This document shows, in pieces, positions 10,263 to 56,794 of a DNA stretch of 64,000 nucleotides. Origin of the DNA: Isoetes taiwanensis. Lineage: Eukaryota > Streptophyta > Lycopodiopsida > Isoetales > Isoetaceae. Both the position numbers and the translations under genes were made by a program. Under the pieces are notes generated by a model, which did no database searches, had not been told where the DNA came from, and was given only the letters and a program-made list of their open reading frames with translations. The stretch is from assembly GCA_021234155.1 (NCBI GenBank), contig JAJEKV010000027.1, positions 124,001-188,000 of the forward strand, written 5' to 3'. Position 1 is the stretch's first letter. Each line of letters begins with the position of its first letter.

Positions 10263-13162
10263 TCATTCATCTTCCTCGTCAGAAGACTCTGTTGTACTAG
10301 CACCATCGTCATCCATTGCATCCGAGGAGTCGTCATCTAGCAGCCCATAATCAAAATCTTCTTCCTCGTAATTGTTTTCACCAAACTGATCATTTTCTTC
10401 AACCTCTTCAATCATGCCTGCAGCAGTAGACCTAGTCGTTATAGTCCTCCTTGCATTTTGTCTCACACCACGGCCTCGCCCTCGCCCTCGTCTCCCTCTA
10501 GACCTGCTTCCACTTGTACTAGCTAATTCAGCTGCTGCCCTGGATCTACTTCTTGTGATCCGACCAATATTCATGGCTTCTGCCTCTTCAAAATATGTTT
10601 GGGCCAATTGTGTATCAATATCAAGCAAAGGTGTGGGTAATTCGGGAGTCTTCTCAATATCTATCTCATCAGGATTAACCTGTCAAATCAAAATAAATTG
10701 GCTAATCTAGAAAATAAAGAATGAAAGAAATTAAGCAAATAATGGAACCTGCGATGGGAGACTATGACGAGTTTCAAAGTTGCGCACAAGCCTTAAAGTT
10801 TCTCGAATATATACTAACCGCTCTACTTGTTTTACCTTCAAACGGTTCCTTCTCTTCGTATGAGCCAATGCGTGTGCATTCCAATTTCTTTCAGCAGCAC
10901 CAGAAGAGCAGTCCTGTGGCATAAATTACGTCTCATATAACAGAAATAAAGTCTTGTTTATATGAGCATATATTGATATAAACAAGTAGATATACCTGCG
11001 ATAATATCCTACGTGCTAAGGATGCAAGTAATGGCACGGAATCTCCGTATCTTTCCCACCAAGACACGGGCTTACACTTTGCACCATGTGACTTTGATAG
11101 CTCATTCGTAAATCTGCCAACACCATTCCTGTACATATCTAGTTCATCTTGCAGTCTTTCACACTCCTCTATAGAATAAACTCGTTGAATATATGACAAC
11201 CATCCATCAGTTAACTCTTGGCTCATCATTGTCGTTTGATCTGTTGGCTTCCAAAGAGGATGCAAAATGTGGGCAACCATGTGAATGGGTTTCTTGAACC
11301 AAGTCCAACGCTCATCAAAACATTCTAGAACTTCTTTGTACCTACATCAAAAATATAAATGTAAAATTGATGTTACATGAAAGTGTACAGCAGATTTACA
11401 ACAGAATTTTTGAATGATATAAACATGAAAAAAAAAAAGATACTTTCTGAAACTCTATTATAGCAGAAATCAAGTGTGTTAGATACTTTCTGAAACTCTA
11501 TTATAGCAGAAATCAAGTGTGTTACAGCAGAAAGAAAACATGTTATAACATGCCAAACAGGGCATTCAAAAAATTTATAATAACATAAATAAATTGCTGG
11601 TACAATAAGCCACTTAAAAAACCTGAATACTTAAAAAAATCAGCAAAAACAAATAAAGAATTGACTTACTTGTGTGAGCTCGTGGCCTCGCTTGAAGCTC
11701 CATTCTCTAAAACAATTCTAGCCCTTCTCATAAACTCGTATAATAATCCCATTGTTGATCCTTCACGATCCGTGAGGCGAAGAACAGAAAATAATGGTCG
11801 CATTACTGTGATTACAAGCGAAATAGAAGGCAAAGTACTAGGATCTAGTATAATAGATTTAACTCTGACGGCATCATTCTTGCTAGAGTCGGACCAATCT
11901 CTCCAATAATTGCTAACCACGGTTTGTTCCAAGGCACTCCAAACTCTTGCAAGCCTCTCAAGCACAATGAGAATATACCCAAACCGAGTTGCACTTGGTC
12001 TAATAATCACAAGGTTGGAATAATGGCTGAAAATCTTTCTTGCATTCCGTTTCTTTGTAAATAACTTGACCACCATGCTTGCTTTCTTATGGACGTCATG
12101 AACCCAACTCAACTTTCCAATATCCTCCAATAATAAATCTAAGCAGTGTGACGCACATGGAGTCCATACAAGCTTGGGAAATTCAGCCTCTAAAAGTTTT
12201 CCCATCAAGATACAATTGGACGCATTATCAGTAACAATTTGCACTACATTTTCAGGGCCCACCTCTTTTATGGCAGAAGATAACATTTCAGCCAGCCAAG
12301 CACCATCAACAGTTATTGCTACATTACTAGAATCAATTGATTTCAAATACAAAGTTCCGTAACAACAAGATACCAAAACATTGACAAGTGCACGTTTGCT
12401 CGTATCGACCCATCCATCTGAAAGAATTGTGACGCCATATTTTGGCCAAAGTGCTTTTACATTTTCAACTTTGCGTTGCACTTGCACAAATTCCTTGCGT
12501 AAATATTTTCCCCTCATATCATGGTAGGAAATGCCAGTGTAATTTTCTCCTATTTCTGAAAATGCAGCCAACATATTTTTCCAGCAAGACATCTTTAAAA
12601 GATTGAAGGAGAGATTACCTTCGACGATGCATCTGACCAACATAGAATTGGCCTTCTCCTTCCTAATCATTGTAGCAGCATTTGATGCCTTCGATCCCTT
12701 CTTGAAGGTGCTTTGGCTGAAACTTGATGTCTTCTTAGGAGCAGCGGCATTAGAGTTATGAGATTGCGGAATAGAGGCAACACCCACACTACTTGATGCT
12801 TGTGGCTGAAATCCCATGTCAATGGAAGAAGATGCCAGGCCAGGAGTATGACCACCACCAATAGGCTCCTCGACCTCATCTTCGTCATCCAACAAATCAA
12901 CTGACTCAGCTTCTCTAGAACGTTTTTTAGTCCCCATATTTTTTGATTCTCCAAGTGCCTCCTGATAAACTTCTGGAGGTACTTGTTGACATGCTGATTT
13001 TCCATAACCTGCTAGTCCAGCAAGATGAGCAACAAGACGTGTCTTCGTTCCCGTGCAATAATCATCACAAAAAACACAGTTCCAACTATAAACTCCAGCT
13101 GATCCTGTATTTTTTCTGTTCTTGGTATATTTATCCCATAACTTGCTTTTCCCTTTTGCCAT
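10263..13162 (-). CDS. hAT transposase, BED zinc finger and DUF659, four exons
   Basis: Cut-and-paste DNA transposase. Exons, all with GT/AG borders and consistent phase: 13162-11670, 11341-10996, 10913-10749 and 10679-10263, giving 806 residues. ATG 13162 is chosen because the BED finger (C29, C32, H45, C57) follows at once; the frame is open a little further upstream. DUF659 follows with TILSDGW and VTDNASN (catalytic aspartates) and CASHCLDLLLEDIGK. Exon 2 ends in the dimerisation motif WWERYGDSVPLLASLARRIL. Exon 3 carries AAERNWNAHALAHTKRRNRL. Exon 4 has an RGRGRG basic patch and an acidic tail. Introns 1 to 3 are 328, 82 and 69 bp. No stop or shift is visible in the joined frame. Confidence 0.9.
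11438..11523. repeat. 43-bp tandem duplication in hAT intron 1
   Basis: Two adjacent identical 43-bp copies beginning AGATACTTTCTGAAACTCTA. Recent duplication, no coding effect. Confidence 0.9.
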
Positions 13163-15292
13163 CGTGATGAAAAGTTCGATAAATCTGACATGCCAAGGCA
13201 TCAAAAGTCAAGACCAGAATAAATAAATAAAGAAATACAACAAGGCAATAACAAGGCTAGTTTCCAAAGAACCATATACTTGATAAGTCTGTTTTAAGAT
13301 TTAATTGATATTGATGTCTCATACTATAAGATGCATTTAGAAAACAAAAAGGGTTTCTTGAATAACATAGCAACATCCCTGCTGTTGAAAACGTTATTGT
13401 ACCTTTGATCTTGGTCTCAAGTTGGGGTTTCTTGCGTACTTCAACTAAGAAAAATCCAGCCAGTTCTGCATGCGCTCTCTCTTCTCAACTAACTTTGCAA
13501 CAGCATTGGCATTGTATACAACCTGCAATTAAGGAATCAGACAAGCTAATTTGACATACCATTGCTGAGGCTATTGAGACAAACAGGGCATTCAAGTTCA
13601 TATACAGAAAACATGTTACAGACCGTGTTATTCCTCAGCTTCTCTCTTTGAGAAATCAACAAATCTTGCAGCAGGAGTTGACCCAGCTTCCAGAGTAGGC
13701 TTTGCACCTTACAATCCTCATTTGGTTGTACAATCCAAGCTAGATTTTATTGAGCCATCAAAAAAGGAGTATGGCGCTTTTGGGCGGACTTTCTTTCTTG
13801 ACAAAATGGCATGCATCGAAAGAAAAAGAAAAACAGAATATACTACAAATGGCTGATCATTGATCAAACAAGCGAGCCCATGTGTGTGGTGGAAGATTCA
13901 TCAAAATCGAGTCATCTAATCTTAGTGAGGCATGCGGAACCAAACATCACCAACACCTCTTGTAAGCAATATTGAGAGAGAAGTAGAGAATGCGGGGTGG
14001 GGTTACTCGGGGACATCAAAGTTGTGAAAGCGGCGGGCTCCTCTTGAGGCGATGAATGAGAATAGCATGGAGCAATCTCACAAGCTCCGGATTGGCTGCT
14101 AAAGATCTTGAAACTATTGCATGAAGCAGCGTTTAAATCCGCGGTTTTAAATTCTTTAGCGGCCGGTGGGCATTGCGGTGGCATGGCACCTCATGCCATT
14201 GTCGAGACCTATATGGACTGGAATTTGGCAACCAATGTCTTCACTTTCTCCGGCACATTTGTCTTCCGCAATGGAAAACATGTGGCCCGGATTAAATTCA
14301 GAACCTTCTCCACCAAAGCAGGCTTAAATTCAGAACCTTCTTGCTGCAGGCTTGAACCCAGCAGTTGCTTCCTTTTATCAAAATGCAAGTCACTGAAACA
14401 GAAGCCCAAAGACAAAAGCTGGTTATTATTTTCACAGACTATGATGGTTTCTTATATGATTACTATTTCTCCTATCATATTTCGCTACATTTCTAGAATT
14501 TTCCAGTTCAATCAATACAGTTTTCTCACATACAAGCCATTCGACTTCCTAAAGGAGATTCATAAAATTAAATTGAAGAAATCAAACGAAAAACTTCATA
14601 GTATTTAAGATAGAAATAAGTACCTGATGGCCAAGATAGTAATCCAGATGGTTGACACGGAAGAAATGATCAATATGAAGGCTTATTGGATCATCCGGAT
14701 CAAAAATTGGTATCTGCTTGGGACTAAGACACAGAGACCAATATTTCAAGCTTGTTTTAGACGAAAAATTATACATGGAAGTTAAACTTATTCCTCATTC
14801 AGCCTGTAACTTGAAGTTCAATAACATTCTAAACACTCTCCAAACAGGTATCGAATTGTAAACAGGTCTCATCTGCAATGGATGCTACTGTGACTGTGTA
14901 ATGCAAATCAACCACAATAGTAAGCTTTTCTAAACACTAAAGCTAAGAATAAACCTTGAAAGCCAGATTATCTTGATGCAGCCATATATATGCCCTTGTT
15001 TCCTGCTATGCTAAAGAGGAAGCTCCCTGCCCACTAGTGTACAAACATCCATAATAGAATTGACAGAGGCTACAGCGGCCACGGTGAGAATCGAATCGGC
15101 TACAGCCGCCACGGTGAGGTTTTGCCACAAAATTTTTTGCTGCCCTAAACCCTAAACGTGCATGAAACTATTTTGGGACAAAAAAATTTTTTTGGACTAT
15201 TGACTAGACTAAAACATAAAAATCTTCATAAATACGTACGGATTTTTAAAAAAGTATTTTATGAATAAAAATCGCGTTTTTTAACAACATTG
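13163..15292 (-). other. hAT 5' untranslated and promoter region
   Basis: About 2.1 kb between the transposase start and the hAT left end (minus orientation). Open frames here (for example 14108-14608 plus) show no family motif. Contains a direct repeat of GGCTACAGCNGCCACGGTGAG at about 15067 and 15095 and two telomere-like CCCTAAA units at about 15144, which in plants can act as a telo-box promoter element. Confidence 0.4.
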
Positions 15293-16926
15293 TATGCAGT
15301 AGTCAAAGATCTACATCATAGTCCTCCTCATTCTTTTTGCTGCTCTCTGCCGTCTCGTCCTTCTGTTCAATCTGCTCCTTTGCTGGAGACTTAAGTTTTG
15401 TATCCTCCTCGTTCTCTGGAATGGTAGCTAAAGCTACTTCTTTAAGCTCTGCAAAGGTTGCCTCGTCGTCTAGTGAACTCGAGAATGGAGGCTGTATCTC
15501 TGAGGACGTTAGTTTAGCATAATCAGATGAAGACTTGGCCCCTAACTCTTGATTTTCATCACGGTAAAGTAGGTAAAGGCAGCCAGTCTCATCTTCACAA
15601 AATGCCACTGACCTCCTTATCAATATCCACGGCTACAGTTGCGGCCCTTCTTAAGTGCACATCGCGATAGTAGTACGAACCGAGGAGAAAGCATCAAGCA
15701 CCCAATCTCTGGGCCGAGAACATGTCGGGGAGATGGTTGATGAGCTTTTGTGGTTTTGGTAGTGATTCACAATCTGCCTTGTGCACTTGGGTCCTGCAAT
15801 TTACGTAGGCTATTTGGAAACTCTAGGGCGTTTGAAAAGTTTTGGCCAATGGCGGTGTTGAAGTGTTCCATGGACCTCTTCCCATCAAAACTCCAATAAG
15901 CTACATGAAGGTACTCTACCTTCGAGCAACCTTGGTCCTCCACCATGGTAGTTGATGTTAGTTTTTGTACCTAGTGAAGCATTTAAAGTGATGTTAGCAA
16001 AAACAAGAAAACACTTGAAAACCGAAAGCGAGGAAACACTATTCGGAATACACTCGTAATTAAAAGAAAAATAATTGTGATACGGAATAAGACTTACCGA
16101 ACAAAGGTTTTCATATATCTGCTGGCGGGAAACCAAAGTGATTTTTGAAAGCTGATTCCACCAAAGCGGTACATGCTTCGAATGGAGCGTAACTAAGCGC
16201 CAATGTTTGGCCGTTGAGATCTGCTTGATTCCTTCAATGAAAGCATTAAACTCACGAAAATTTGAAGGGCTGGTCGTCATTCTCTGGCGTCTTTAAAAAC
16301 TTAAACCGTAGGGGAAGATCAGCAATAACCAAAGTAAAGTCACGTGGCTTAACCGTTCCGACAAGGTTAGGTTGCAATCACCATGAATGATTGAATATAA
16401 ATTGTTTTGATCAAACATCACGAGAATCACATTTACGGCTCAGCAGTTCTTCTTTTCATTAATCGACCTCTCTTCACGTCTTTGTTGACCAAATTCATAA
16501 AGCCCTCGGTGCGGTCCTTATTTTTCTTTTGCTCTAAAGAAAAACAAAACAACAAGCGTCAAGAGATGGTTTGTGCGAGAGAAAAGGAATTTTGAGAGTA
16601 CTTACCCTCAAAATTTGGTGCATATTGCACAATAAAATGTTCGTCCGATGTGGCAATTAGGGTAGAGTTCCTTGCACCTTTCCATGTTTACGGCGTTTAG
16701 CTGCTCCATCAAACATGTTTGACATGTTATGACGTTCTTTGGCTGCAAGACATTAAAGAAACAATGAGATTAAGCGTAAGAATCAAGGCAAAGTAAAAGG
16801 AAAACAAATAAAAGTCAAGCTATTTGTATTACGGAATACAAAACCGTTAACTGTGATGCTACCTCGAAACAATATGCGAGAAAATAGTTACGCTGCACAG
16901 GACAAACATCTTGCTTGTCTCTAGAA

Positions 16927-17117
16927 AAGCAATGTGTATTCCTAATCTGATTGCTTCTCTAAAGGCAATGTGTATTCGGAATACACATGCCTTTCTTTAG
17001 AGGAGCAATGTGTGTCGAATAACAATGCTTTTCTAGAAGACAACAATATTTGTATTCAGGAATACATTGCCAGGTGTGAAGGAAGGCATGTGTATTCGGA
17101 ATACACTATATGCTTAG
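16927..17117. repeat. Degenerate palindrome array in an intron
   Basis: Intron 16743-17175 of the methyltransferase-like gene contains four or five imperfect copies of GCAATGTGTATTCNGGAATA followed by CACATTGC, at about 16930, 16962, 17005, 17045 and 17090. They share the inner TGTATTC-GGAATACA palindrome with the array at 19119-19311. Confidence 0.75.
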
Positions 17118-19118
17118 CCGATGTTTTTTGGGAATCTAACATGCAAAGAGTAAAGTTTGTGTCGAGAGAACTTACTTGTGCAATTCCTTTGACATTTCTT
17201 CTAGGCTAAACTCCTTATCAACAACTTTTTGGAGAAGGCGTTCGGAAGCTCAGGTGTCGGAGAAAGCCACGCATTTCCCTCAGGGCGGTAATGGTCATTT
17301 CTTTTTTTTTTAGCACGTCAGGGTTTTTTTCTTGGTACGTCTCCTTGCCCTTGCTCTTTAACTCCCTATTTCGAACATTGTAAATATCTAGATCACGGGT
17401 TCCCAAATCTGTTCAAGAAGATTTCCGCGTCAAATAGTGGGTTTGCTATTACGGAATACATTTTGTGCTTACCTTGCCATCTCTAAAAGCTAAGCGGAAC
17501 CGGTTAATGGTGGCCAATGAGAGGCGCCTTTTATTGGCCTCGTCATATTCGGCGGCATTCAATGGCACCGCCTCCTTAAGCTCCAAGGAAAAGCGGCCCG
17601 GCTTCTTAAGGTCCTCACCGTACTTTTCCTTGAAAATTACATACTCCTGATGCATAAACCGGATCTTGTCGACAAAGCTCATCTTTTAGTTTGTACTTTC
17701 GTTGTCGGCATTGTGGGTGTTGGCAGCGATTTTTTACTTCTTCATCACGTAAAGACCACGGTATGCAACGGTGTAGAGGGGCGGAGAGGTACCTCGGGTT
17801 CTTCTTTTCTTTGTAAAAGTTGCCTTCTTGCCTTGAAGCTATGATTCCCTCCCAAGGCGTAGTGAGTGTAGGTGTCGGCGTTTTCTGTCATACTCACGGG
17901 GGTTGTGCCTTTGCTCCCACGTCAACAAGGACAACTATTGGGGCCCACATGAGCATTTGGATTGCTCCTTATTACGTCCTTCAGGTTCCTCAAGTGATGG
18001 GCATAAATTTTGCGAACCTGAAGTGGCCTTTCACCGACTTCATTTTTAGGAGGAAGCTTCATTGAAAGTGGCCGGCAAATAAATGACACCTTGCACAAAC
18101 TTGTGCGGGTTAATCTCTTCCATTTTTCAGATGTTTTATCAACTTTTTTTTTTTCCTTAATAGCAACACGGGTGCTTTACCCTTCCCCTTCTTCTTCTTA
18201 GGTTCCTCGGGGACTTACGTGATTTCAAATTGGCGTGCTTTCCTTCTTTGGTTCTTTAGCAGCTATGGTTGCCCTTGGCTTTGCTAAGTTTCTTTGGCCG
18301 CCTGAGGGGTTCTTCCTCGTCTTGTTCACGGGAACCTCCATCCGATGACCTCCACGAAGAACTAGCATCGAGGGGTGATGATTGTGACCTTTCTCCATCG
18401 AATGCTTCGGACTCAGCGGCGGGAAAGTCCTGCTTGTGCTGGTAGAAACACGTCTAATTCTTGAACACATGCTTCTTTTTGTCAGGTAGTGTGAAAAGAA
18501 TTTATCTGATCACCGGTGGTTACCTGCCGACAATTCTAAAAATCGCGATGTCCACAACTATGAAGCCTTGGGAGGTCTTGAAAAGATAGCCTCCCCACGA
18601 CCACCTTGTCCGAGCAACTTCCTCAACATCTTTTATTGTCCCAAGGTTCTACAAGGCTTCGGTCGGGCGTACCTTTTTGTCGGCACTTTTCTGGGGCGGT
18701 ACAAAAGCGTTAGTGTCTTTGTATTTTCCATCTGCACCCACAGTTCTGAACCAACTGCGTTTGAAAGTTTTAAGTAAATAGCGAGTTCATCCGTGTCGGC
18801 GGTGTGCTTTTGTGGGTGTGGGCCAGCTTAGGCTTGTGAGATTTCTTTGATGCCCTCTTGCTTCCTTCTTCCACACTTGAAGCGTTTAAAACAACAATGT
18901 TAAGGCAAATTGAGCAGCGTATTCGGAATAACATTTACTAATCTTGTGCCCTAAAGGCCAGAAAAAGACAGGAAAACAAGCAGAAATATAGTAACTCTAA
19001 GACAATTTTTTGTGCCTTAATTGGACTCGAAATTGTTATTTTAACCTTTAAAGTGGTCTGTTTTAGCTAAAAGGTGTCTTCATTAAGTGCTAAAAAACAA
19101 GAGTTTCCAAAAAGACAA

Positions 19119-19311
19119 GCAAAGTGTATTCCGGAATACACTTTGCCCTTCGGGTGAAGAGCAAAGTGTATTCCGGAATACACTTTGCCCTTCAGTGAGG
19201 TGCAAAGTGTATTCCGGAATACACTTTGCACTTCACTCGATGACCAAAGTGTACTCGAATACACTTTGCTCTTCGACTGTGAATGGGCAAAGTGTATTAC
19301 GAATACTTTGC
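19119..19311. repeat. Array of five 25-28 bp palindromes, about 42-bp period
   Basis: Copies at 19119-19146, 19161-19188, 19202-19229, 19244-19269 and 19287-19311. The first three are identical 28-bp perfect palindromes: GCAAAGTGTATTCC joined to its reverse complement. The last two have lost a few bases. Spacers are 12 to 17 bp, partly alike (CCTTC, CACTTC). Single half-sites or cores (ATTCGGAATA, GCGGAATAC) are scattered from 16031 to 19630. No coding potential. Could be binding sites or hairpin-forming DNA. Confidence 0.95.
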
Positions 19312-20407
19312 CCTAAAACAAATCGGGGAAACAAAAAAGAAAGTGCATTACTATGTACTTTATATGCTTACCTGTCCATTGTCTTCGCTATGTAAATCGG
19401 AATACAGCAAATGTATATTGATCGGAAGGCGCTCGGGCTGGCGACTAAATCTCTTAAAGCGGAATACGCAACTGAGGCGCTCGATTTTCCTTTTTAAAGG
19501 TAGGCCACTGTCAGTTGTGTTTTTCTATGTAATGCGGAATACGTCTTGTCCAAACACTCACGGACAAGTGTGATTTAGAATAACATCTTTGCACACACAC
19601 AAAATCTTTGCACACAAAATACTATTCGGAATAGCATTTGTATTCTTGAATATCATTAGTTCAATCGACTTGTGAGTTAGTAACAAGCCCACAATTTTTT
19701 TTGCGGTTGTTTGACATGGTTAACCGCCATTGAACAAACTTCCACCGCCATTTGTTTGCCCAAGTACCTCAAGCTTCCCGGATGGAACACAAGGCCCAGA
19801 TGCTTCTTCAACACCTACCTCGACAAGGTCTTTGTTGCTTCTAAGACACTCAGGAGTCCGATAACTAGCGGTTGCCACCACCTTTCCAACCCTCTCCAAG
19901 TCCGGTGGGAAAACCGCCGCCACCACCTTTCCAACCCTCACCGTTTGCCGCGTAGCAATCTTCCACCACCATTTGTACCATCCCCAGACACTACAATGGC
20001 TCGACCTCGACGACAAATTTTTCGAACCGACTACCTCCGTAGTTTGTTGTTTCTCCATCTTCACTTACACATGCCGAGGAATCGGCCGTTAAAGGCTGCG
20101 AGATCCTCCATAAACTTCTCTACCCGCGATTTCACTACAAATGAAGGCGACCTGCGGCATCTACACCTCTTCACAAAGCGTGGTGACACATGGGTTTTGC
20201 GAATTTCGATCGCTTTAAAGAGACATGTTTGAGCGAACTCCACAATGAAGGCAGCTACAACAACTTTATTTGGCACATCATATGGTGGCCCATCTCCTTC
20301 ATTCAACCTTTGCACCTCCGCCTTATCCAGAATTACGCGACTTCCGCGTGGTTTGTTCTCCTCTACAAGCACACCACTAAGGGTAGAGGGAGGTCACCCC
20401 CGAGTAG

Positions 20408-22917
20408 AACTCTCTTGAGGAAGATGAAGACACCAACGAAGTGCAACGAGATTACACATTCTCTAGCCAATCCACTAAGAAATTCAAGGTGGATTTTAGT
20501 TTGAGAGCATGCTCCTCTGTAGAAGAAGAAGAAACCTTATGGGCCGAGCACAAAATGAGAAGACTTTTAAGAAGTAAATCTTTGCTCATTGGGTTGCATC
20601 AACAAATTTAACGTGGCTAAATTACGAGCAATTAGAGACAACTTCTGATTCAATGACATTGGCTGACCCGGAATGCTTATTTGGCCTATCATGTAAGACC
20701 AGACCGCAACACCTTCTTGCACTACATTAACCGTCAAGAAGTTTGCCAGAAATGCTTTATGGTTGTCCACCGTTTAGGGTCCACCAGAATGTCTAGAATA
20801 CACAAAAGACTGGACAAAAATCCAGCAATTGATGATCATTGTGGACCAAGAAGAGTTATAACCATGCATGCCCTTGCTGCTGTGTCGTGGATGGAGAAAT
20901 ATTTTAGAGAAACATGTGAGAAGCTGCCTAACAGTAACATGTATCATTTAACTGATAACATCACCAAAAAAGATGTTTTTAATGAGTACAAAGAGACTTG
21001 CACTCAGCTTCAGCACATCTCTTACTCACACTTCACCAGACTGTGGAAAAGTGAATTCGGTTTAGTGAAAATTCCCAGGAGACATAGAATGTCTGTTTGT
21101 TCAAGGTGTGCAGAATTAAAGAGTCAAAGAGAAACTGCAAAGACAGAGGTCGAAAGAAGTAAGCTCATGTTCTCCAATCTCTCACTTGTTTTAAAGATAA
21201 TGCTTTGACCTCATTTCTTCTACAGATATTGTGCAACAGAACCTTGCCAGACATCGTGAACAACAAGCAGCAGAGAGAAGAAAGCTTGCCAAACACAGAA
21301 AAAAAGCTCTTGAACGTCCACTGCAATATATGTCTGTTGTGATTGATGGAATGGACCAAAAAAAAACTACTCTACCGCATTTCTTGAACATTCCTAAAGA
21401 TGTGCCAGAGGAATGTTTTGTTAAGGTCCACCTTGTAGGAGCTATGGTCTTCAAAGGAAGTCTAAAGTGCAAAGTATTCTTGACGTATCCAAACTTGCAT
21501 GGTGACCCGAACCTCACAATTACAATTCTTAACAAGGTCCTGTGCGAGCAAGAGCAATTACCACCAGTGCTTTACCTGCAACTTGACAATACTACAAGGG
21601 AGAACAAGAACCAAACACTCTTTGCGTACTGTGCCATGTTAGTGGAGCTAGGGATCTTTAGAAAAGTGAAGCTGGGTTTCTTACTTGTAGGCCACACTCA
21701 TGATCAAATTGACCAAATGTTCAGCAGATTTTCTGTGCGCCTCAGAAGGAAGAAGGCTTTCTCTCTTCCTACTTTAGTTCGAATTATTGAAGATTCTTAC
21801 ACTCCCACTCCAGTGATTGATCTTCTTAAAGAGACTGCTGATTTCAGAGAGTTTATTTTCTCTCAACGTTCAGACAGAGAACAAGCTGTGAACAAATTGA
21901 ATGATCTCACCTTTCAACATCACATCAAGTTCTACTTGAAGGATGACCAGAGTTTCTTACAGGGCAAGAAGTATACCACAACTAAGGACTGGAGTCCACC
22001 AGAGGGATTACGCTTCCTTAAATATATTCCAGACACTTCCTTCGTAGAACGTGCTGAGCAACTTCCTCTCAAAAATCCTAAGGAGTCCAAGCAGAAGAAA
22101 AGTACCCCAGAGTCATCCTTAAAAGCCATAGAAAATGGAATTTCCTCAGGCTTTAAGTACTTCTTAGAAGAAGATCGAATGTGGTGGAGTAACTTCTTTC
22201 TCGAACAGAAAATTGTTGTGAAAAATATAGCTCTAAGACAGTTGCAAGAACCATTTCAATGGCCTAACACCTTCCATCAACCCCAGCACCAAGCAGGTCC
22301 AAGCAATGCTACGTTAGCACTGCAGAGAAGAAGACGAGGATCGAGTCATGTACCTCGGACCAAGACGCAGGAATGAGCCTCAAGGTAATATCACAGAAAT
22401 TACCAAGGGTATGCTAATTGCTCTTCCTACTGAGGAGGATGACAAAGGTCGACCTTTCTGGATAGCAAAAGTGCTTGACACAGTCAAGGAGGAAGGCTTA
22501 GTCACTAAACTCAAGATTCATTGGCTTGCAACACGCTCAGAAAATGCTTTTGAAGGTAGATATGAGTTAGAAATGAGAAGCCAAGGAAAAGGGAGAAAGT
22601 CCAAGAAGGTGGGTTGTAGGGATGAGCTGATCCTTAATGACGTGACTATATTATGCTATGATTTTAAATTGAAATCTGACAATCGTCTCACGGAAGGACT
22701 ATCAATTTGCTTAAAAAAAGCTTGTAATTACGAAGAAGATGATGAAGAAGGTGGTGGCAATGCTTCACCATCTGTTGATAGTGATGAGGAAGATAACTCA
22801 AGCACTTCCTCTAGTGATAGTGAAAGAAGTGAAGGTGATGAGGATGGCATAAATGAACATGATGACGTCCTGGATCCCTCTCTCATCACTCCTCACACTT
22901 TTGTACATAACTGAGTC
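20408..22917 (+). pseudogene. DUF7869-type protein, putative DDD transposase
   Basis: Candidate transposase of the 9420-23291 element. Blocks: 20408-20600 (DTNEVQRDYTFSSQSTKKFK), shifted frames to 20680, 20681-21158, intron 21159-21225 (GTAAG to TACAG, phase correct), 21226 to about 22345, then a shifted frame to TGA 22915-22917. The core has the DUF7869 signature LQLDNTTRENKN with FLLVGHTHDQIDQMFSRFS, preceded by VVIDGMDQKKTTLPHF. The three aspartates (VVID, LQLD, HTHD or QID) are spaced like an RNase H-fold DDD triad; that reading is mine. A cysteine pair (SVCSRCAELK) precedes it. The C-terminal block has PFWIAKVLD then an acidic-serine tail. Shifts near 20600, 20655 and 22350 make it a pseudogene. 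It diverges from the methyltransferase-like gene. Confidence 0.7.
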
Positions 22918-23266
22918 TTAGAAAAAGACTGTAAATTTTGCATGTGAATATGAAGATTCTATCTTCAAATTTTGAGAATACTACAGTTTCAGTTACGGAC
23001 TTACTTCAATTTTTTGTTAAATATTTTATCCTCTGAAATTAGAGATTCTCTCGTAAAATATACTTCAAGAACATTCTATTTGCTTAGAAAAGTGACACTT
23101 TAAAAATGTCAATTCTTTGGTTGCACAAAAAAATTAGTCATTTTGGGGGGGTTCAAAATAGAATTTCATGCATCTTTTTTTTTTTAACCTAGTTTCACCC
23201 CCTTTTTGTAAAAAAAAAAAAGGAATCTTTGAGGAATATTCCTTTCGCTCTCGTTTCGATGATTTG
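22918..23266. other. Right subterminal region of the DUF7869 transposon
   Basis: AT-rich, with homopolymer T and A tracts at 23176-23185 and 23209-23220 and the palindrome AGGAATATTCCT at 23232-23243. No coding. Confidence 0.5.
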
Positions 23267-23291
23267 CTCCCGTTTAATACGCAATCTTGTT
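23267..23291 (-). repeat. Right terminal inverted repeat of the DUF7869 transposon
   Basis: Reverse complement matches 9420-9444 at 22 of 25 positions. Followed by the duplication ATGG at 23292-23295 and then directly by chromovirus RT sequence. Confidence 0.85.
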
Positions 23292-25100: not shown

Positions 25101-25968
25101 TCTATATCAGAAAGAAAAAATAGATTATAGATGGTATGTGCGTATGAAAAAAGAATGATTCATATAGTATGCTATTTTCGTTTTGGGGTTGGGGAGGGTT
25201 TTCAGGCAGTGGTTTGGCCTATGATTTCCGTATAGTATTGTATTGAAAAGGGTATAATTTGCCATCTTAGAGGAGCTTCACTGTTTGATGCTATTTTGGG
25301 TGGTCTGGAGGCCGCTTTTTGCATGGGGCGTTGTTGCAAGGGTTGAATTGCAGTGAGCCGGATTTGGAAGGCACCAGCCATTTGGATCGCTGCCCTGTGG
25401 TGTGTGTACAGAGGGAGGCCTCTGGGAGAGGCAGGCGTGCGCTTCGGCATGTGGGAAACGGCCCGCTATCATTTCTGTGGTGTTACCGCTGAAGCAATCC
25501 GGCTGGAGCTTGGAGGGCGATGGAGGCTGTTGGTGAGCGTCCTTGAATCCCTCACAAATCTCGTGTGTTTGTCTGTGCACGGTCAGTGAGGCGAAATTAG
25601 CATAGCAGGCCGTAGGTGAAAGGTGTTTCCGGAGAGGGCTGGGCAAACTTGGATTCCTGTGTGTGTGTGGAGGCTGGGGCCAGAACGCTGCAGCATGCAG
25701 ATGAGAAGAGAGGGTGGTGGAGCAGAGGCGGTTGTTCGATAGTTGTCCCTGCAGGTGTTGTAGAGACGGAGGTGGCGGGCCTATATTTCATTCCCTTGAT
25801 GCTGTAGGCTGTCCACCCGAGTGTAGTAGGGCTGCTGAGATCAGGAAGGGGAGCTGGAGCAGAAGGCCTGCCCCAGTTAGCTTTGCGAGGCCACAGCCAC
25901 CGCTTCGGGATGTTGTAATTGAGGGGGACGGAGGTCTGGATGGGAGGATCAAACAATTGAGCCTGGGG

Positions 25969-27291
25969 ATGGGGAGTTCAGTGCAGAGAGGTGGAAGCGA
26001 GAGAAATGGTGGTCCAGTGCGGGGTGATGCTGGTATACCTGCCGTGTTTGAGGATCGAGTAGGTGCATTGGCACCTGATATGTGTAGGAAGGATGGAGGA
26101 AGGCGGGGAAGGGGTGGTAGAGGTGGAGGTAGACTAGGTAGTGGTGGGCGCCGAGGGGGAAGGCAGGTGAGATGCGCGCCTTCAATCACACAATCCGGTG
26201 CTGAACCTATATGGGATGAGTCTGTAGAAGAGGCGGAGCCCCGTGTCAATGTTAGGACTGCCAGGGGTGGGGCTAGGAAGCGGGGACGTGGGAGAGGCCG
26301 TAGGATCCCCAGCTTCATAGAGGAGCATGTCGGGATTGACATTGGTGGGGGGCCTGGAGAAGAAGCTGTGGAGTTGCCCGGGGTGCTAGATGCATCCGTG
26401 ACGATTGTGTTTGGGGGATGTGATGTCCCACAAGCGTTATATGATCGGATGATTGTGTTTCTGAAGGAGAAATGCAAAGCAGGTGTGGTTGCATTGGAAA
26501 GAGGGTCAGACCTTGACCATTTGCACATCCAAGCTGTGATGCGATCTGACGCGAAGACCCCATCCAGCTTGAATGTGAGAATCAAGAATTTTCTAGGATG
26601 GAACACTTGTAAACCGGTAGGGGCCATGATCCTGTGCAAAGCCTTGAGGGGAAGCAAATTGCATTGCTTCGAAGGCCTCGTGGGCTATTGTTTGAAAGAC
26701 ATGGGGAAGTTACACTTTAAAGCTCACATGCACAATGTATCTTCGGAGCAAGTGCACACTGGGAAGGAGCTTTATGCATTGTATGGGGCTGGGGAGGTCA
26801 AGCATTTGATAGTGCTTGACAATCGAAACCTCATGGCCAAAGCTTTCCACTATGTGTCATATCATGCTGGCAGGTTTAGGACTGTCTCCCTTCTTCACAC
26901 CATCAGATGCATGCTGCAGACCGGCAAGTTCAGGCTGGCAAGTTCTTGGGTGTTGCCCAATAACTCTGCATATGCCTCGTTGGAACGAGTGCAAGCAGCC
27001 TGGCGGATTATGCTGGCACCGCAGCAATGCAGCTATAAGGATGTGCGCATGGCATTATTTGGGAGCCAGCCAGGAGTGGTCCCAATAGAGCGTGTTGGAA
27101 GGAGAAGAAAGCGCTTTTGGGATGCTGCAGGCGTGTTCGAGGATGGGGAGGAGAGATCTGGAGATGGAAGCAGTAGTGATGAATTCGTCTATGCTAATAG
27201 CGGAGTGCAGCCCCCGTGTCAAGAGCCTGCTGATCCCTATGCTGATTTCATCCCGCTTGACATTAGGGATGATGAGTTTGATGTAGTTTGA
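25969..27291 (+). CDS. Rep-like HUH endonuclease, no helicase
   Basis: Predicted rolling-circle type single-strand nuclease. 440 residues from ATG 25969; the frame is open to 25714 without an ATG, so an upstream exon is possible. An N-terminal third rich in R and G (about residues 40-110) is probably disordered. The Rep fold follows: VTIVFGG (motif I position), HLHIQAVMRS with H184 and H186 (HUH metal site), and GYCLKD with Y240 and K243 (motif III nucleophile YxxK). About 150 residues follow with no Walker A, so no SF1 or SF3 helicase. The tail is acidic. The order matches CRESS-type Reps and the HUH proteins of Replitrons, as I recall that family. Frame and catalytic residues are intact. 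Confidence 0.7.
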   Translation: MGSSVQRGGSERNGGPVRGDAGIPAVFEDRVGALAPDMCRKDGGRRGRGGRGGGRLGSGGRRGGRQVRCAPSITQSGAEPIWDESVEEAEPRVNVRTARGGARKRGRGRGRRIPSFIEEHVGIDIGGGPGEEAVELPGVLDASVTIVFGGCDVPQALYDRMIVFLKEKCKAGVVALERGSDLDHLHIQAVMRSDAKTPSSLNVRIKNFLGWNTCKPVGAMILCKALRGSKLHCFEGLVGYCLKDMGKLHFKAHMHNVSSEQVHTGKELYALYGAGEVKHLIVLDNRNLMAKAFHYVSYHAGRFRTVSLLHTIRCMLQTGKFRLASSWVLPNNSAYASLERVQAAWRIMLAPQQCSYKDVRMALFGSQPGVVPIERVGRRRKRFWDAAGVFEDGEERSGDGSSSDEFVYANSGVQPPCQEPADPYADFIPLDIRDDEFDVV

Positions 27292-47823: not shown

Positions 47824-50050
47824 CTACAGATAGTGATCCCAAGAGCACTCATGTGTTTCGTCAAATGAACACCCAAAGCAAGTGTCATCCTTCTCACTAT
47901 CCTGCAACTGAGCAATACATGGTTGATAAGCAGCATCTTCATGCCCATGTTCTGCTACAATTTCAGCTGCAAAATGTTCTCCAATTGCAACAGCCTTACC
48001 AGTCAGATTAGCATTAAACAATGATGTCAAATGAGGTACACAATTCATGCCAGCAGGTGCCATTTTCCTCTTTCTTAATTTCTCTTTGGCCTTTGATCTT
48101 GCTTCCAAAACAGATGTTGAAAGGCTCTTCTCTTCTCCAAACAATTGGTCAAGGCTAAACTTACATTTTCCTCCTGTATAAAAAATAAGAGCCATGTACC
48201 TTGCAGACATGATTTCATAATGTGCCTTAGCAGATTTCTGAGCCTCCTTAGTAGCTTTCAAGATTGCTTTCCTAGTTGCCTCCATTTCTTTTACCTTTTT
48301 CCTCTCAGCAGCTAGCTTCTTCTTTTCAACAATTCTTTCTTCTCTAATCCTTATAGCCTCACGCTTCTGTTTCTCCTCTTCAATCCTAGCATGAATCATT
48401 TGATCAGAGGTTATAAATAGCTGGCCAGCAAGTATCTTACATAGCTTACTTTTCTTGTCTTTAGGCCTTGTGTCAAGAACAACAACATGCGTGGCTTGTG
48501 GAATAAGAGCAGCATGTGTGGCTTGTTGAACTTGCACTTCAGGTGCAATAGGAGCCACAATTGGCACTTGTGGCTCATGATCAGGGTCCTCAAATGGGAC
48601 GGGTAAATCTTGATTTAAAACAGTAGAGGCTAGTGGATCAGCATGTAAGTTAGCTACAAGACAATGAAGAAGAGGCATGTTATCCTCATTGTCTTCACCA
48701 TCTTCATCTTCACTATCTTGCACAATGGTTTCTACAGCAAAAGGATCAGGAGATACAACATTAGCATTGAAGGGCCAGATTCCTGTTTTGGCAAAACCAG
48801 CAACTATGTTTGGACGAGTCAAAGACTCTTTGAGAGAAGTAGAAACCAGAACTGCCATGTCTTCCTTTGTTGGTTCAGTCTTTGGCTTGGCATGCATAAA
48901 AGCTCCCCTATTCCTTCTAAATCTATACTTGAATGGGGAGAAATAGGATACGTCAAGTGGCTGCAATTTATGACTGGTATGTGCAGGTAAACAAAGGATG
49001 TGGAGGCCAATACTCTTAGCATGCTGGATAGCTTTCAAACTCACATGACTTCCATATCCATCACATATGAGTAGATGTGATTTTTCAGCTGAAATTCCAC
49101 CAGGAACATTGGTTGCAAAATGATCTAGCCAGGCATCAAACAATTCATTTGTAATCCATGTTTTCTTTTGGTAGGCCATGGCAGCACCAGGCTCACACCC
49201 AGCCATCAAGTCCCTATCTCTCATCCTCTTCCCTTTGAACACATAGCAACCTGGCAGAGAATGACCTGCAGCATTTACACAACATAAAACAGTTAGCCAT
49301 TCTCTATTTTTTGGGGTTATCTCAGTTACATTTCTATCTCCTCATCTAGCGAGAGTTCTAACACCCCTCCTACCACCAACTTGCACGCCAGTCTCATCAC
49401 AATTCCAAATTGTGGCAGCAGACAAATTTAAATCAACTTGCAGCTTCTTCAAAGCAGTGTAAAAAGCCTCGAAATTAGTGGAGGTCATGACCTTAATCCT
49501 TTGGACCTCCATACATTGTGGAGACCTCAAAGATAATTGTGGATTTCTCTTCTTGAATCCTCCCCACCAAGATTTGCCAGGAAGACCATCTTTGAACAAT
49601 GTTTGCCTATTTATACACATCTCTTCCACCTTCTCCCTCAATAATTCCAATGTATGACCCTCTGCCCTCATCAGCAGATTGATAGCAGAATTGAACTAAT
49701 GCTCTTTCTTCCTCTTGAGTGAGGCATTTGGGGACAGATCCGAATTTCTCATTAGTTATGCCATTTACCCAATTCCTAAGTGTAGTTTTGGGAATGCCAA
49801 AGTGCCCAGCAGCCTTTGTTATAAACATAAGACCGTCATCAATGGCATCTATGGCCTCTTCCATTTGCTCTACAGTCCAAGCCCCCCTATACATTGATCT
49901 CACTCTTTTACTGCCAGGATTGCTAGAGCTGGATGGGTTTATCAGAAGTCTCTTTGACTTACCCTTGCAACTGGCTGCTTGCCTTGAAATGTTAGGCACA
50001 ACAGCAGCAACTGGGGGTGGGACATCTATAATTCGGTCTCTTAATTGCAT
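47824..50050 (-). pseudogene. pogo-like transposase, one frameshift and one stop
   Basis: From ATG 50050: a psq/HTH region (RGAWTVEQMEEAIDAIDDGL, then FGIPKTTLRNWVNG), a CENP-B/Tc5-type DNA-binding region (KSWWGGFKKRNPQLSLRSPQ), then the DDE_1 core with aspartates in WNCDETGVQ, LICDGYGSHVS and LQPLDVSYFSPFK, followed by RPNIVAGFAKTGIWPFN. A charged coiled-coil tail rich in E and K (RIEEEKQKREAIRIREERIV) ends at 47824. A single extra base near 49668 shifts the frame, and TGA replaces CGA at about 49342. Otherwise open, so inactivation looks recent. All three catalytic residues are kept. Confidence 0.88.
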
Positions 50051-52389: not shown

Positions 52390-52419
52390 CGTGGGCTTCT
52401 GAGCCTGCTCCCTGAATTC

Positions 52420-53931
52420 TCAGACAAGATCAGCATCCAATGTTTGACACCATTGTTCCCAATCAGAAGAAGGCAGCATATTATGTACAGGGGGAGAAAC
52501 CCATTCCGTGGGGACAGTCTGGCTATCCAGATAGACACGCAGAGTGTTATAGCCACCAAGGTGTTGTAAATAAATTTGGGCAAATTGAATACCCTCGTCC
52601 TCGGACAAATTCTTACGGACTTGTTGCAGAGTCTCGGCAACCCAGAGAGGAAGATGATTAGCTAGCTCTGGCATGTACTCCTCTTTGAAGGTGGTGGCGT
52701 GAATAGGATCCTGCAAATATTTGTTCTCTGGTAACAACAACCATTGAGCGTATTCATTGCCACTGAATACCCGGTTGGGTCCATCATTGAACTTGTCCAT
52801 AGTATCAGCCAGATAGAAATCATGAAGGACATAAGGCATGGGTTGGACCAGGCGGAAGATGAAGAATTCAGGATCATCGCAGGTGAGGAGGCCATATACC
52901 AAGAGAGCACAGAAGAGGCATTCATTCTCAATGGAGAGATCGGGCCATATAGTGAGAAGATCGGTGCTGGTGAGGGGCTCATGAATTTTGCCGTTTGCAG
53001 AATACCACTTGAGAAGAAAAAGATGGCGACGTGAGACAACATAATCCAGATAACTGGAGGGAATGAAGTAATCCCGTGGAATTGTCATAGCAAGCTGTAG
53101 GTAGATCTCGTGTTGACCCTGCGCGTCTTCAGCAGACTGGAGAGCTTGGTTGAGCTGATGTTCCAGATCACGAATTTTGTTATCTTTGTCCATGAGGAGA
53201 CGTGACTGATCACGGACTCTACGGTGTGAGTGCGTGGCGTGGGAAGATGAGGGAGCCTGAGTGGAGAGCTGAAGTTGAAGACTAGCAATTTCCGTGTCAT
53301 CAATGAGTTTCTGCTTCTGAGCTTCAACAACCTGAGCCTGTAAAGGCGTGACCTGATTTTGAAGGGTGGAGACTCGACCTTCTAGAAGAGTGATGCGCTC
53401 ATCTCGAACTTCAACTTGGTGTAACTGACTGTTGTAATCTTTGGAGAGATCTGTATACATGGTCTGGAGATCAGTGAGGAGCTTATCCTTATCCTTGAGC
53501 TGGGCAAGAAGATCCTGGATGGTGGTCTGCAACTGAGCCTGCTGATCTGCAAGCATGGTGGTCCTTTCTTCTTCAGCTTTGAGAGCCTCACGGGTCTGTA
53601 ACAGGGCAGCGTGCTTATTTTGGAGACTTTCTTCAAGGGACTGAACTTGTGTTGTGGCAGCCTGAAGATCACGTTGAAGAGCATCTGTGGAATCCATGTA
53701 ATGTTGGATTCCGTTCATAAAATTTTCGTGGGAGTCTTGGAGCTTGATCATACATTCTTGTATCCTGCTGATACTGATAGAGGGCTCGACGGGATAGTGG
53801 AGGATGCATGGGGTTGAATTGGTAAGGACTGGTGGGGGCGGACAAAATGGGTATTCTGAGAGACTTGCTGAGAGTAGGAATGCTGGATTTCGGTGGACTG
53901 AGAGGATGAAACATTGATGATGGTTTCGCAT
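52420..53931 (-). CDS. Extra ORF 1 of the LTR element: coiled coil plus globular domain
   Basis: 503 residues from ATG 53931, intact. A long coiled coil spans residues about 60-270 (LQRDLQAATTQVQSLEESLQ, AQLQTTIQDLLAQLKDKDKL, heptad leucines), followed by a folded-looking C-terminus (YLQLAMTIPRDYFIPSSYLD, FKEEYMPELANHLPLWVAET). It sits between RNase H and the 3' LTR, where Athila/Tat-type elements carry additional ORFs. No signal peptide or transmembrane segment, so not envelope-like. Upstream in another frame, FVKFLWRKFFGYSIKN and HIDWPQILFHRLCYEIDRI resemble the putative plant transposon protein domain, perhaps the original N-terminus. Function unknown. Confidence 0.6.
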   Translation of the reverse strand: MRNHHQCFILSVHRNPAFLLSASLSEYPFCPPPPVLTNSTPCILHYPVEPSISISRIQECMIKLQDSHENFMNGIQHYMDSTDALQRDLQAATTQVQSLEESLQNKHAALLQTREALKAEEERTTMLADQQAQLQTTIQDLLAQLKDKDKLLTDLQTMYTDLSKDYNSQLHQVEVRDERITLLEGRVSTLQNQVTPLQAQVVEAQKQKLIDDTEIASLQLQLSTQAPSSSHATHSHRRVRDQSRLLMDKDNKIRDLEHQLNQALQSAEDAQGQHEIYLQLAMTIPRDYFIPSSYLDYVVSRRHLFLLKWYSANGKIHEPLTSTDLLTIWPDLSIENECLFCALLVYGLLTCDDPEFFIFRLVQPMPYVLHDFYLADTMDKFNDGPNRVFSGNEYAQWLLLPENKYLQDPIHATTFKEEYMPELANHLPLWVAETLQQVRKNLSEDEGIQFAQIYLQHLGGYNTLRVYLDSQTVPTEWVSPPVHNMLPSSDWEQWCQTLDADLV

Positions 53932-54339
53932 TGTTGCTGATGGTGCGGAGAAGAAGAAATGATGTTGGATGGTTGTTGAGTGGAGGACTGAGAAGCTGCA
54001 CCCAGATTAGTAGGAGAACCCTGACTTGGAACAAGAAGACAGTGGTCGATGAGGGTTTGCATGTGAGCACCCATAGCAGATTCTAGGTTAGAGGCAGGAG
54101 AATGACGGATGCGATCAATTTCATAACACAACCGGTGGAACAAAATTTGAGGCCAATCAATATGATGCGGAGAGTGAATGGCCATGACAGCAGTATGAAA
54201 GAACTGCTCGTTGATGTGGGTGTTCTTGATGGAGTAGCCAAAGAACTTACGCCACAAAAACTTCACAAAGCCTTCGTGAGGTTTGGCAATGTTGGTGAGA
54301 GATAATCGGGCACACATGAGATTTGCCTGCCTTGTGAAC

Positions 54340-54998
54340 GATTTCGAAATGAGCGAACTCTTGCAGAAGTAGGACCCAACGAGCAATGCGACCGTGGGCA
54401 TGGCCTTGTTGATCAAATATAGAAGAGTTTGATGATCAACGAAGAACTTGATCTTGCTGCCTAACAAATAATGACGGAAGTGTTGGACACAAAAAACTAA
54501 GCCCAAGGCTTCCCGCTCCGTGGCAGAATAATTTCGCTCGCCAAGATTGAGTTTCCGGCTAGCATAACGGATGGGTTTATCCGTGTGCTCGTCATATGCC
54601 TGAGAGAGAACAACACCAATAGCAAAAGCCGAGACATCCACATGAACATGAAAGGGCTTGTCCCACTGAGGAGGAACAAGAACCGGTGCCTGAGTAAGCA
54701 ACAACTTCAGCTTCTAGAAGGCAGCCTCCGCCTGGGGATTCCAAGCCCAAGAGGATTCATCACCCGTGAGTTTATGAATGGGATCAGCAATGGCCGCGAG
54801 TCCAGGAATGAAGGTGGCATAGTAATTGACCTTACACAGGAAGGAGCGTGTCTCTTTAATATTGGATGGTGCATGTGCCTTCAGCACGCAACTGATTTTG
54901 GCAGGATCTGTGGTGATGCCTTCTTTACTAACCACATGACCCAAAAGAACGCCGGAGGAATAACAATTAATGCAGGCAACTCGAGAGTTGGACATCAT
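54340..54998 (-). pseudogene. RT thumb and RNase H of the LTR element
   Basis: GVLLGHVVSKEGITTDPAKI and FLCKVNYYATFIPGLAAIAD are the RT thumb. Then PFHVHVDVSAFAIGVVLSQ, ASRKLNLGERNYSATEREAL and HFRHYLLGSKIKFFVDHQTL are gypsy RNase H with catalytic D and E. A shift follows near 54350 (true reading RWVLLLQEF). The palm with Y-x-DD and the protease are missing: gag joins the thumb at about 54990, an internal deletion. Confidence 0.8.
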
Positions 54999-54999
54999 A

Positions 55000-56794
55000 A
55001 AAATGAATGGCAGAAGGTACCTTGACTAGATTTGCGGCCGGAGCCAGAGGAGTGGATGACGACGCTGCTTGCTGAGGTCGTTGTTGTTGAGGTGGCCGTG
55101 GTGGCTTTCTCAGAACAGGACGTGGGCCTTGTTTGCCATTGGCAACCCACAACTGATAAGCCGTGAGTCGTACTGAAGCAGTTTGATTTGTTCCTGGGAG
55201 TTGAACTTGGACTTGAGGAAGCTGAGGGTAGGCAGTGGTGGTATGACCCCATTCTTGGCAGTGGTAACACTGAGCCTTAGAAGGATCAAAAGGTTGACAG
55301 GGACCTTGACCTCGAGACTGCTAAGGTTGCTGAGATTGTTGATACTGTTGAGGTTGTTGAGCTTGATATTGCTAAGGCGGATATGATTGTTGCTGCTGGG
55401 GCGTGATTTGCACCTGGAAAACCATTTTCTATCGGAAGGGTGTCGGATGAGAACGAGTACACTCTTTCGTGGCGTGATTGCACATGTTGCACCGTTTACA
55501 ATGAGGAGGACCATTGGTGGAGTTGCATTCATTGGCAAGATGTCCTTGATATTTACAGATGTGACACTAGATCTGTGTGCGTTGACGGGCCGGCTGTTGA
55601 GGCTGAACCGCACTCTGAGGAACCATGACGGGAGGCATGAAAGGCAGTTCCCTGAGGGCAACACCTCGTGAGGAGACATTGACTGAGTGGTTGACTAGTT
55701 CGATAGCCTGCTCCAGGGTCTTGGGTCGCAGGTACTCAGTCATGAGACGGATGGCAGGAGGAAGACCTTGCAGAAACCAGACAAGAATCTGGCTTTGCGT
55801 GGGGTACTCCTGGAGCTTGCTGACCAAAATGTGAAGACGATCCGCAAAGTCAGGGGCAAACTCCGTGGGCTGTTGCTGAAGATCATTGAGTTGCTTGAGC
55901 AGAAGTTGGTCATCGTCTGTGGTGCCATAATGAGAAAGAAATGCAGTCTTCATTTCTTGCCAGTTTTGTTTCCAATGGCTTTTGTTGGCCATGAGCCACT
56001 GATGGGGGGCACCTCGCAGCGTGGTGGAAAAGATATGGAACTTGAGTTGAGGTTGAGCGTGGCCATTGAGGATAGCCAATGCCTTAAATTCCTCCATGTG
56101 AGCTTGGGCACTCTGATCCAGAGGCTTGCCTTTAGTATTGCCGAAGGTAGGATATGTCAGCTTCAGATTGTGAATAGGAGATGGAGGCAGAACTGGTGCA
56201 TAGACAGGTGGAGCATAAGCAGGAACATAGCTTATGGGATGGAACGCTGTGGGCTGAGAACAAGGTGGCATAGGAACAAAAAAACCCGGAGGGCCAGAAA
56301 GTGGAGCATCCTGTGGCGAAGGACCATGAGAGCCCTCCTCATTAAGCTTGAGATCTGTAAGATTGTAAACAGGAAGGGCGTGTTAGAAAGATGGGGAAGT
56401 CTGATATTCATGGACGTGGGGAGGGCCAAAAGAGACATGTGGATAGCCCATCCCCGCAGGGGGAGAGGAAGGTTGCGAAGGCAGGGGAGTATGACCAGAA
56501 GGAATATGAATGTAGGTGCTTTTCCGGAGTTTGAAAATAATGAGGAGTGGGCTGAACGGGGGTATGATGGGGCGACTGGGGTTGAGAGCAATGCTTACAC
56601 ACAGGGGGAGACCATGGTCGAGAATGAACACGAGGAGTAGGCGGTGCCGACTGTGCTCTTGAACGGACACGACCTCCCTCAATATCATAATCAGTGTCAT
56701 ACATATCTCGAGCAGCTTCGCGACGCTGATGGCGCTCTAGACGAGCCGCCGTTTGGCAAAGAAGTTCTTCAGGAGTGAAAGCACGAGCAGACAT
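55000..56794 (-). pseudogene. Gag of the LTR element with zinc knuckles
   Basis: N-terminal block from ATG 56794 (MSARAFTPEELLCQTAARLE), then the capsid block 56271-55567 with LTYPTFGNTKGKPLDQSAQA, LRGAPHQWLM and the conserved gag helix FLSHYGTTDDDQLLLKQLND. After a stop the sequence carries CHICKYQGHLANEC and CKRCNMCNHATKEC (55570-55450) and a third knuckle CYHCQEWGHTTTAY near 55260. A stop at 56392 and others break the frame, so the copy is probably inactive. Confidence 0.75.

Follow-up and report, generated by a model that had tools for sequence, protein, structure and literature searches.

Why would a DNA transposon of a land plant carry a DNA-modifying enzyme of bacterial type? The question is raised by a 64,000-nucleotide stretch of the Isoetes taiwanensis genome (GenBank assembly GCA_021234155.1, contig JAJEKV010000027.1, positions 124,001 to 188,000 of the forward strand; this whole stretch is called the window, and coordinates below are counted from its first letter). 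Positions 15293-23291 of the window hold a decayed copy, truncated at its left end, of a DNA transposon that is present in multiple copies and has terminal inverted repeats (TIRs). The minus strand of this copy holds a spliced gene that almost certainly joins a ParB-like domain to a beta-class N6/N4 DNA methyltransferase (the ParB-methylase) and lies beside a DUF7869 gene in the same element, which also contains arrays of an 18-bp palindrome, GTGTATTCCGGAATACAC, about 42 bp apart. Judging from sequence comparison, the best explanation of the whole, with a probability of roughly 0.6, would be a Sola1-like transposon whose ParB-methylase binds the element's own palindromes and thereby marks or de-silences its own DNA.

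The element and its two genes

The limits of the window copy follow from sharp homology limits against 20 fetched copies and from the ends and target duplications of other copies. A DNA search of the 1.66-Gb genome with window positions 15300-18110, in which 40 of 1783 candidates were scored (the window included), found 39 further matching places besides the window itself, and in 34 of the 39 the match covers almost all of the query, with a DNA identity of 83-90%. The 20 copies of the window's subfamily were fetched by DNA match as 10-kb stretches and were chosen via the methylase gene, so that carrying it is a matter of design. Both ends could be located in 14 of them, giving full lengths of 8239-8459 bp between TIRs of about 25 bp (left AACACGATTGCAAATTAAACGGGAG, right AACAAGATTGCGTATTAAACGGGAG). 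Each of these full copies is flanked by a 4-bp target duplication, free of mismatches in 13 and with one mismatch in the remaining copy, while the next 4 bases agree in 0 of 14; since two copies (L014 and L015) have a common flank, the set holds at most 13 independent insertions. The TIRs and the fixed-length target duplication are those of a TIR (cut-and-paste type) DNA transposon, bearing out the initial annotation in its reading of the locus as a eukaryotic TIR element. That annotation had also set the methylase gene between the transposon ends and closed the element at 20372. The right TIR is kept, but it lies further on, ending at 23291, and about 340 bp on the left, including the left TIR, are gone from the window copy. 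The parts of the element are as follows.

15293-23291, no strand: transposon remnant
23267-23291, minus: right TIR, reading AACAAGATTGCGTATTAAACGGGAG inward
15303-15969, minus: last exon, motif I half of the methylase (limits by eye; match to the C-terminal half of PF01555 at E=3.8e-18 in copy L040)
16099-16534, minus: exon with motif IV, IADLPYG in open copies (limits by eye from GT/AG and open copies)
16606-16742, minus: small exon with a CxxC pair (KNVITCQTCLMEQLN), whole or partial in the copies examined (limits by eye)
17175-17408, minus: exon between the ParB-like and CxxC exons (limits by eye)
17473-18123, minus: ParB-like domain part of an exon, with RPLQVRKIYA..., GGNHSFKAR and ANTHNADNE (TIGR03764; open in copy L019)
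18550-20393, minus: probable 5' exons with a large intron between them, predicted from open frames at 20393-20061 and about 18960-18550 (limits uncertain)
20573-22914, plus: DUF7869 gene (PF25273), probable transposase, divergent from the methylase gene (outer limits approximate)

In the window copy, the motifs stand where the initial annotation had placed them (RPLQVRKIYAHHLRNLKD at 18029-17976, YALGGNHSFKARRQL at 17861-17817, KPQKLINHLPDMF at about 15756-15718 and VLDAFSSVRTT at 15701-15669, all on the minus strand) but are split over different frames, and DLPYG at about 16323-16300 even requires a frame change within the motif; this copy is broken. Its hand-read pieces alone reach E=5.2e-5 and 23.7 bits against PF01555, whose cut-off is 26.7, and match no ParB profile. 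Related copies are far better preserved. The C-terminal methylase exon (220 residues) was matched at all 150 places scored (150 of 3237 candidates) at 68-90% identity, in many of them without a stop, and open exons carry IADLPYGFK and WVLDAFSGSGTTIACALKKGRNCVAVDID. When the methylase exons of L040 are joined, they match PF01555 at E=9.4e-20, covering profile positions 4-220 of 221, with motif IV preceding motif I, which is the beta-class order. Among 34 readings (33 loci and the window, with L028 and L029 overlapping), DLPYG or DIPYG is found in 21, DAFSGSGTT in 11 and DAFSGSRTT in 6; motif I of the window copy reads DAFSSVRTT where open copies have DAFSGSGTT. The beta-class combination of profile, motif order, D-x-P-Y and F-x-G-x-G-T-T is present in open copies and absent from the window copy. 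Among solved structures, CcrM gives the best sequence match (phmmer E=1.5e-12 over 246 residues), and the PHROG 67 DNA methyltransferase family matches at E=3.3e-27. The L040 match to PF01555 rules out a single chance resemblance and agrees with the beta-class assignment of the initial annotation, which had called for such a profile comparison. The methylase was very likely active in the source copies.

The ParB-like exon was likewise compared with profiles in open copies. That of L019 matches the NCBIfam model TIGR03764 "ParB family protein" at E=1.7e-4 over residues 43-178, far below the model's cut-off, and a match to this model is seen in three of the five copies tested; GGNHSFKAR appears in 20 of the 26 readings that cover its place. 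The ParB-like domain proposed from the window copy thus gains modest support. With tblastn, the exon finds a single plasmid match (E=0.3), annotated as ParB family, and nothing among phages.

The second gene of the element contains an open 391-residue stretch at 21201-22376 (PF25273, E=3.3e-52), with frame breaks elsewhere in the window copy; in L045 the reading runs beyond 22376. As the sole other gene seen in this TIR element, it probably encodes the transposase. Its pairing with the methylase, which the initial annotation had expected, recurs in 19 of the 20 fetched copies of the window's subfamily by tblastn, the copy without a match (L020) losing homology near window position 21162. For three elements of divergent subfamilies, the place of DUF7869 was predicted from the window's subfamily and then fetched; it was there in 3/3, as far away as predicted and encoded on the other strand, with 77-92% identity. 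Neither of the two outcomes that the initial annotation had named as damaging, a lack of profile matches and genes that never co-occur, arose. DUF7869 elements without the methylase may also exist. The term DUF7869 was not mentioned in the literature searched. A separate observation concerns window positions 22390-22700 (plus strand), where the DUF7869 protein has, beyond a frame break, a C-terminal region that is conserved (GRPFWIAKVLDTVKEEGLVTKLKIHW...), gives no significant Pfam match and by eye could be SH3/Tudor-like. A single-sequence structure model of the 391 residues (mean predicted local distance difference test score 36) has strands and helices in an order like that of RNase H, which at so low a score does not count as evidence.

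As to where the methylase came from, phage proteins are 26-27% identical to it among the matches listed (15 of 150). No relative was found among GTDB contigs, which were scanned at low sensitivity using just two peptide patterns. A recent capture from bacteria, as the initial annotation had allowed, is not supported by these searches, which test it weakly. A one-off capture into a dead copy is ruled out by the many gene-bearing copies and by the constraint between subfamilies described below. Nothing viral was seen either: full copies show the two genes together with TIRs and flanking 4-bp duplications, no relative of DUF7869 turned up when viral contigs were scanned, nor did one of the methylase with one methylase sequence as query, and a methylase alignment retrieved four loci that are 32-40% identical along about 60-70 residues.

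Selection on the methylase and conservation of the palindromes

Five copies from divergent subfamilies (L037-L041), fetched for their methylase gene, allow nonsynonymous (dN) and synonymous (dS) change to be compared over longer times. For the last methylase exon, seven copies give 21 pairs, of which the 19 between subfamilies have dN of 0.08-0.17. The ratio dN/dS is 0.03-0.15 in 15 of the 19 pairs between subfamilies, and dS is saturated in the other four; the two pairs within subfamilies give 0.26 and 0.38, a rise that is expected because copies decay after insertion. The methylase exon is thus under strong purifying selection between subfamilies. The divergent copies were chosen because this exon was listed without a stop, a choice that favors low dN but cannot create the contrast of low dN with near-saturated synonymous sites.

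The two halves of the element differ in this respect. While dS is near saturation in the methylase half, it is only 0.09-0.82 for DUF7869 of three divergent elements (L037/L044, L038/L045 and L040/L043, each against the window's subfamily). This suggests that the element halves differ in their history, for which recombination between elements (modular exchange) would be the simplest account, or else that synonymous change in the methylase gene has been unusually fast.

The palindromes of the window copy form two arrays, of which the second probably sits in a 5' intron.

16906-17110, no strand: palindrome array in the intron between exons 17175-17408 and 16606-16742 (near-sites at 16970, 17050 and 17090)
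19118-19314, no strand: second array, a 42-bp unit repeated 4.8 times (sites at 19124, 19166, 19207 and 19249)

Near-palindromes of the form GTGTATTC-N0-3-GAATACAC number 6-14 in each of 20/20 copies of the window's subfamily (19 fetched copies and the window, with L028 left out), where shuffled sequence yields a mean of 0.02, and none occur in the flanks of the copies or in the rest of the window. In full copies, they are grouped at two places, one about 1.9-2.2 kb and the other about 4.1-4.5 kb from the left TIR, and 138 of the 179 intervals under 60 bp measure 40-42 bp. The fetched stretches of the divergent subfamilies hold 8 (L037), 5 (L038), 5 (L039) and 9 (L040) near-sites, most of them in the same methylase intron.

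Alignment of this intron shows what has been kept. For 6/6 pairs among L019, L037, L038 and L040 (L041 was left out for its 109-bp intron and L039 as kin of L038), alignment scores lie far above those of 200 shuffles, and with the sites masked the scores of the same six pairs fall inside the shuffle range. The palindrome is therefore the conserved object in an otherwise randomized intron. This shuffle and mask test supersedes global alignment identities, which were too loose to decide. Genome-wide, the perfect 18-mer has 2585 sites and its reversed control 0. Of the 2585 places, 50 were listed, and for most of these the contig has no scored methylase exon; on two contigs that do have one (C23 and C50), sites lie at both expected distances from the exon. 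An apparent slower CpG decay at the palindrome centers (99 of 177 two-base centers still CG, against 19% in 20 other inferred CpG columns) was set aside, as those 20 columns had been picked as decayed.

What the palindrome arrays may be for

Conserved, regularly spaced palindromes within the introns of a gene for a ParB-like protein are probably the binding sites of that protein. In the mechanism that we propose, the DUF7869 protein would move the transposon, and the ParB-methylase would bind the element's own arrays. It would probably do so as dimers that all sit on the same side of the helix, because about 42 bp make four helical turns. The bound enzyme could then methylate the element's DNA, as N6-methyladenine (6mA) or N4-methylcytosine (4mC), or keep it open, so that the element would remain expressible or mobile despite host silencing through 5-methylcytosine (5mC). 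We thus infer three activities: binding of the arrays by the ParB-like domain, DNA methylation, and anti-silencing or self-regulation.

A precedent for such self-recognition is offered by VANC proteins, which bind tandemly arrayed motifs within introns and non-coding stretches of the VANDAL elements that encode them and cause DNA methylation to be lost there (PMC5735166); this anti-silencing in Arabidopsis is also treated in PMC10398659. Like VANC and VANDAL, the Isoetes element encodes an accessory protein and has tandem arrays of a short motif in introns or non-coding parts of the very element that encodes it. The two differ in their parts. The accessible text of both papers does not describe VANC as a methylase or as ParB-like, and the VANC21 motif is described there as 9 bp long, in one orientation and in fast-diverging arrays, whereas the Isoetes motif is an 18-bp palindrome with one core across subfamilies that is weak only in L041.

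The placing of palindrome arrays within the gene's own introns makes self-marking of DNA more likely. A dimeric ParB-like domain would be a natural reader of phased palindromes and the fused enzyme a writer, and with the VANC parallel this favors self-recognition followed by marking. That the system is a self-contained form of epigenetic marking, in which parS-like intron palindromes are recognized, 6mA or 4mC is written, and host 5mC silencing is blocked or bypassed, is a tentative proposal that we place somewhat short of an even chance, and anti-silencing as the net effect is slightly more doubtful again. If true, the element would be a counterpart of VANC built independently from bacterial-type parts. 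To our knowledge, few transposon systems that resist silencing are known in detail, and N6/N4 methylation of DNA is either rare or a matter of dispute in land plants. The family offers a concrete enzyme and a candidate target sequence (those 2585 perfect copies) in one assayable host.

Other uses of the arrays can be imagined. They might be binding sites of the DUF7869 protein or sites of excision control, with the ParB-methylase acting elsewhere, for example in a Dam-like timing of transposition after replication. Some transposases bind internal repeat arrays, methylation-timed transposition occurs in bacterial insertion sequence elements, and arrays are present in all 20 copies examined. However, at the distances from the left end given above, the arrays lie outside the terminal regions, and one array falls within the ParB-methylase intron in each of four subfamilies; we regard this explanation as unlikely.

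Less probable still is that the ParB-like domain is a nuclease or nickase, forming a nick-and-protect or self/non-self pair in which the methylase shields the element. Nonspecific nicking by a ParB-adenine methylase fusion of Bacillus and other nuclease ParB domains are cited in PMC5512222, but such nicking is, in the accessible text of that source, largely sequence-nonspecific and would not explain conserved, regularly spaced 18-bp palindromes. A further possibility is that tandem duplication left the arrays behind as by-products to which no protein binds, the methylase gene being a passenger of unrelated function. This would fit the varying copy number of the arrays and their near absence from L041, but is very improbable, since the core is kept while its surroundings are randomized between subfamilies with near-saturated synonymous sites, and duplication alone is not expected to give one common core across subfamilies.

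Several observations count against a ParB-methylase that binds and marks or de-silences its own element. The ParB assignment is one modest match to TIGR03764, far below that model's own cut-off; Pfam gives the exon only DUF6551 (E 0.01), sequence searches of the PDB returned unrelated chains and no ParB chain, and a profile comparison with one plasmid ParB gave a probability of 2.5, which is no support. One of the five divergent copies (L041) has only two weak sites, and its intron at that place measures 109 bp, which means that not all copies retain the array. The partner of the arrays could also be the DUF7869 protein or some factor of the host. The dN/dS ratio rises within subfamilies, reaching 0.98 for a partial exon, and the methylase and DUF7869 halves, with their strongly different synonymous divergence, need not share one history. 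In addition, changes from CG to TG or CA at 20 inferred columns suggest past 5mC methylation of the copies, although the observed-to-expected CpG ratio of 0.70-0.83 in five copies exceeds the 0.51 of the window.

Known systems and the surroundings of the element

The element is probably of the Sola1 kind. The 4-bp target duplication of its full copies fits Sola1, and we call the element Sola1-like rather than a member of Sola1. A close parallel is the Ectocarpus transposon Sola1-1_Ec32, in which a 1104-aa protein with a ParB-like domain and a methyltransferase is encoded opposite the transposase (Dinatale et al. 2025, PMC12477816); the same paper cites green and red algal cases (Iyer 2011, Petroll 2025). 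The combination of a ParB-like domain with a methylase in a transposon has therefore been described already, and the novelty claimed for it by the initial annotation is withdrawn. As in these algal elements, the Isoetes gene for the ParB-like domain and N4-cytosine/N6-adenine methyltransferase lies in one element on the strand opposite the gene for the transposase, here the probable one, DUF7869; the authors of the Sola1-1_Ec32 account likewise suggest binding and marking of the element's own DNA (PMC12477816). Compared by description, Sola1-1_Ec32 is 21.5 kb long and resides in a brown alga, whereas the Isoetes element measures 8.2-8.5 kb and occurs in a land plant in several subfamilies. The accessible text of PMC12477816 mentions neither palindrome arrays nor a test of selection, and in the literature searched, with subscription papers mostly outside it, no land-plant case and no palindrome array was found for ParB-methylase transposons. 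What is new here is that the type is found in a land plant, where it forms several subfamilies, that purifying selection between these is strong, and that palindrome arrays are present.

The enzyme itself resembles the CcrM type (PDB 6pbd) in having motif IV before motif I, HGDC, D-x-P-Y and DxFxGxGTT, but unlike CcrM it is eukaryotic, spliced and fused to a ParB-like domain. N4CMT of bdelloid rotifers, which carries out N4-cytosine methylation, is likewise a bacterial-type methylase in a eukaryote (PMC8885841). In contrast to the Isoetes enzyme, N4CMT is presented there in connection with an epigenetic mark of the animal, and the accessible text of PMC8885841 makes no mention of cargo between transposon ends.

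The rest of the window holds genes and remnants of other mobile elements. To the left of the transposon, an open 513-residue protein with DUF659 (E=3e-50), which we take to be hAT-like, is encoded at 11669-13207 on the minus strand. To its right, an open 528-residue frame at 25705-27288 (plus strand) matches the Replitron HUH endonuclease (PF21859, E=2e-20), placing a Replitron-type element in a land-plant genome. Further along the minus strand are an open 505-residue DDE_1 transposase frame at 47827-49341 (PF03184, E=1.2e-21) and pieces of a Ty3-type long terminal repeat retrotransposon (RNase H and gag) at 52400-56400. A pentatricopeptide repeat (PPR) protein with an E motif, of a kind that points to a land plant, is also encoded in the window.

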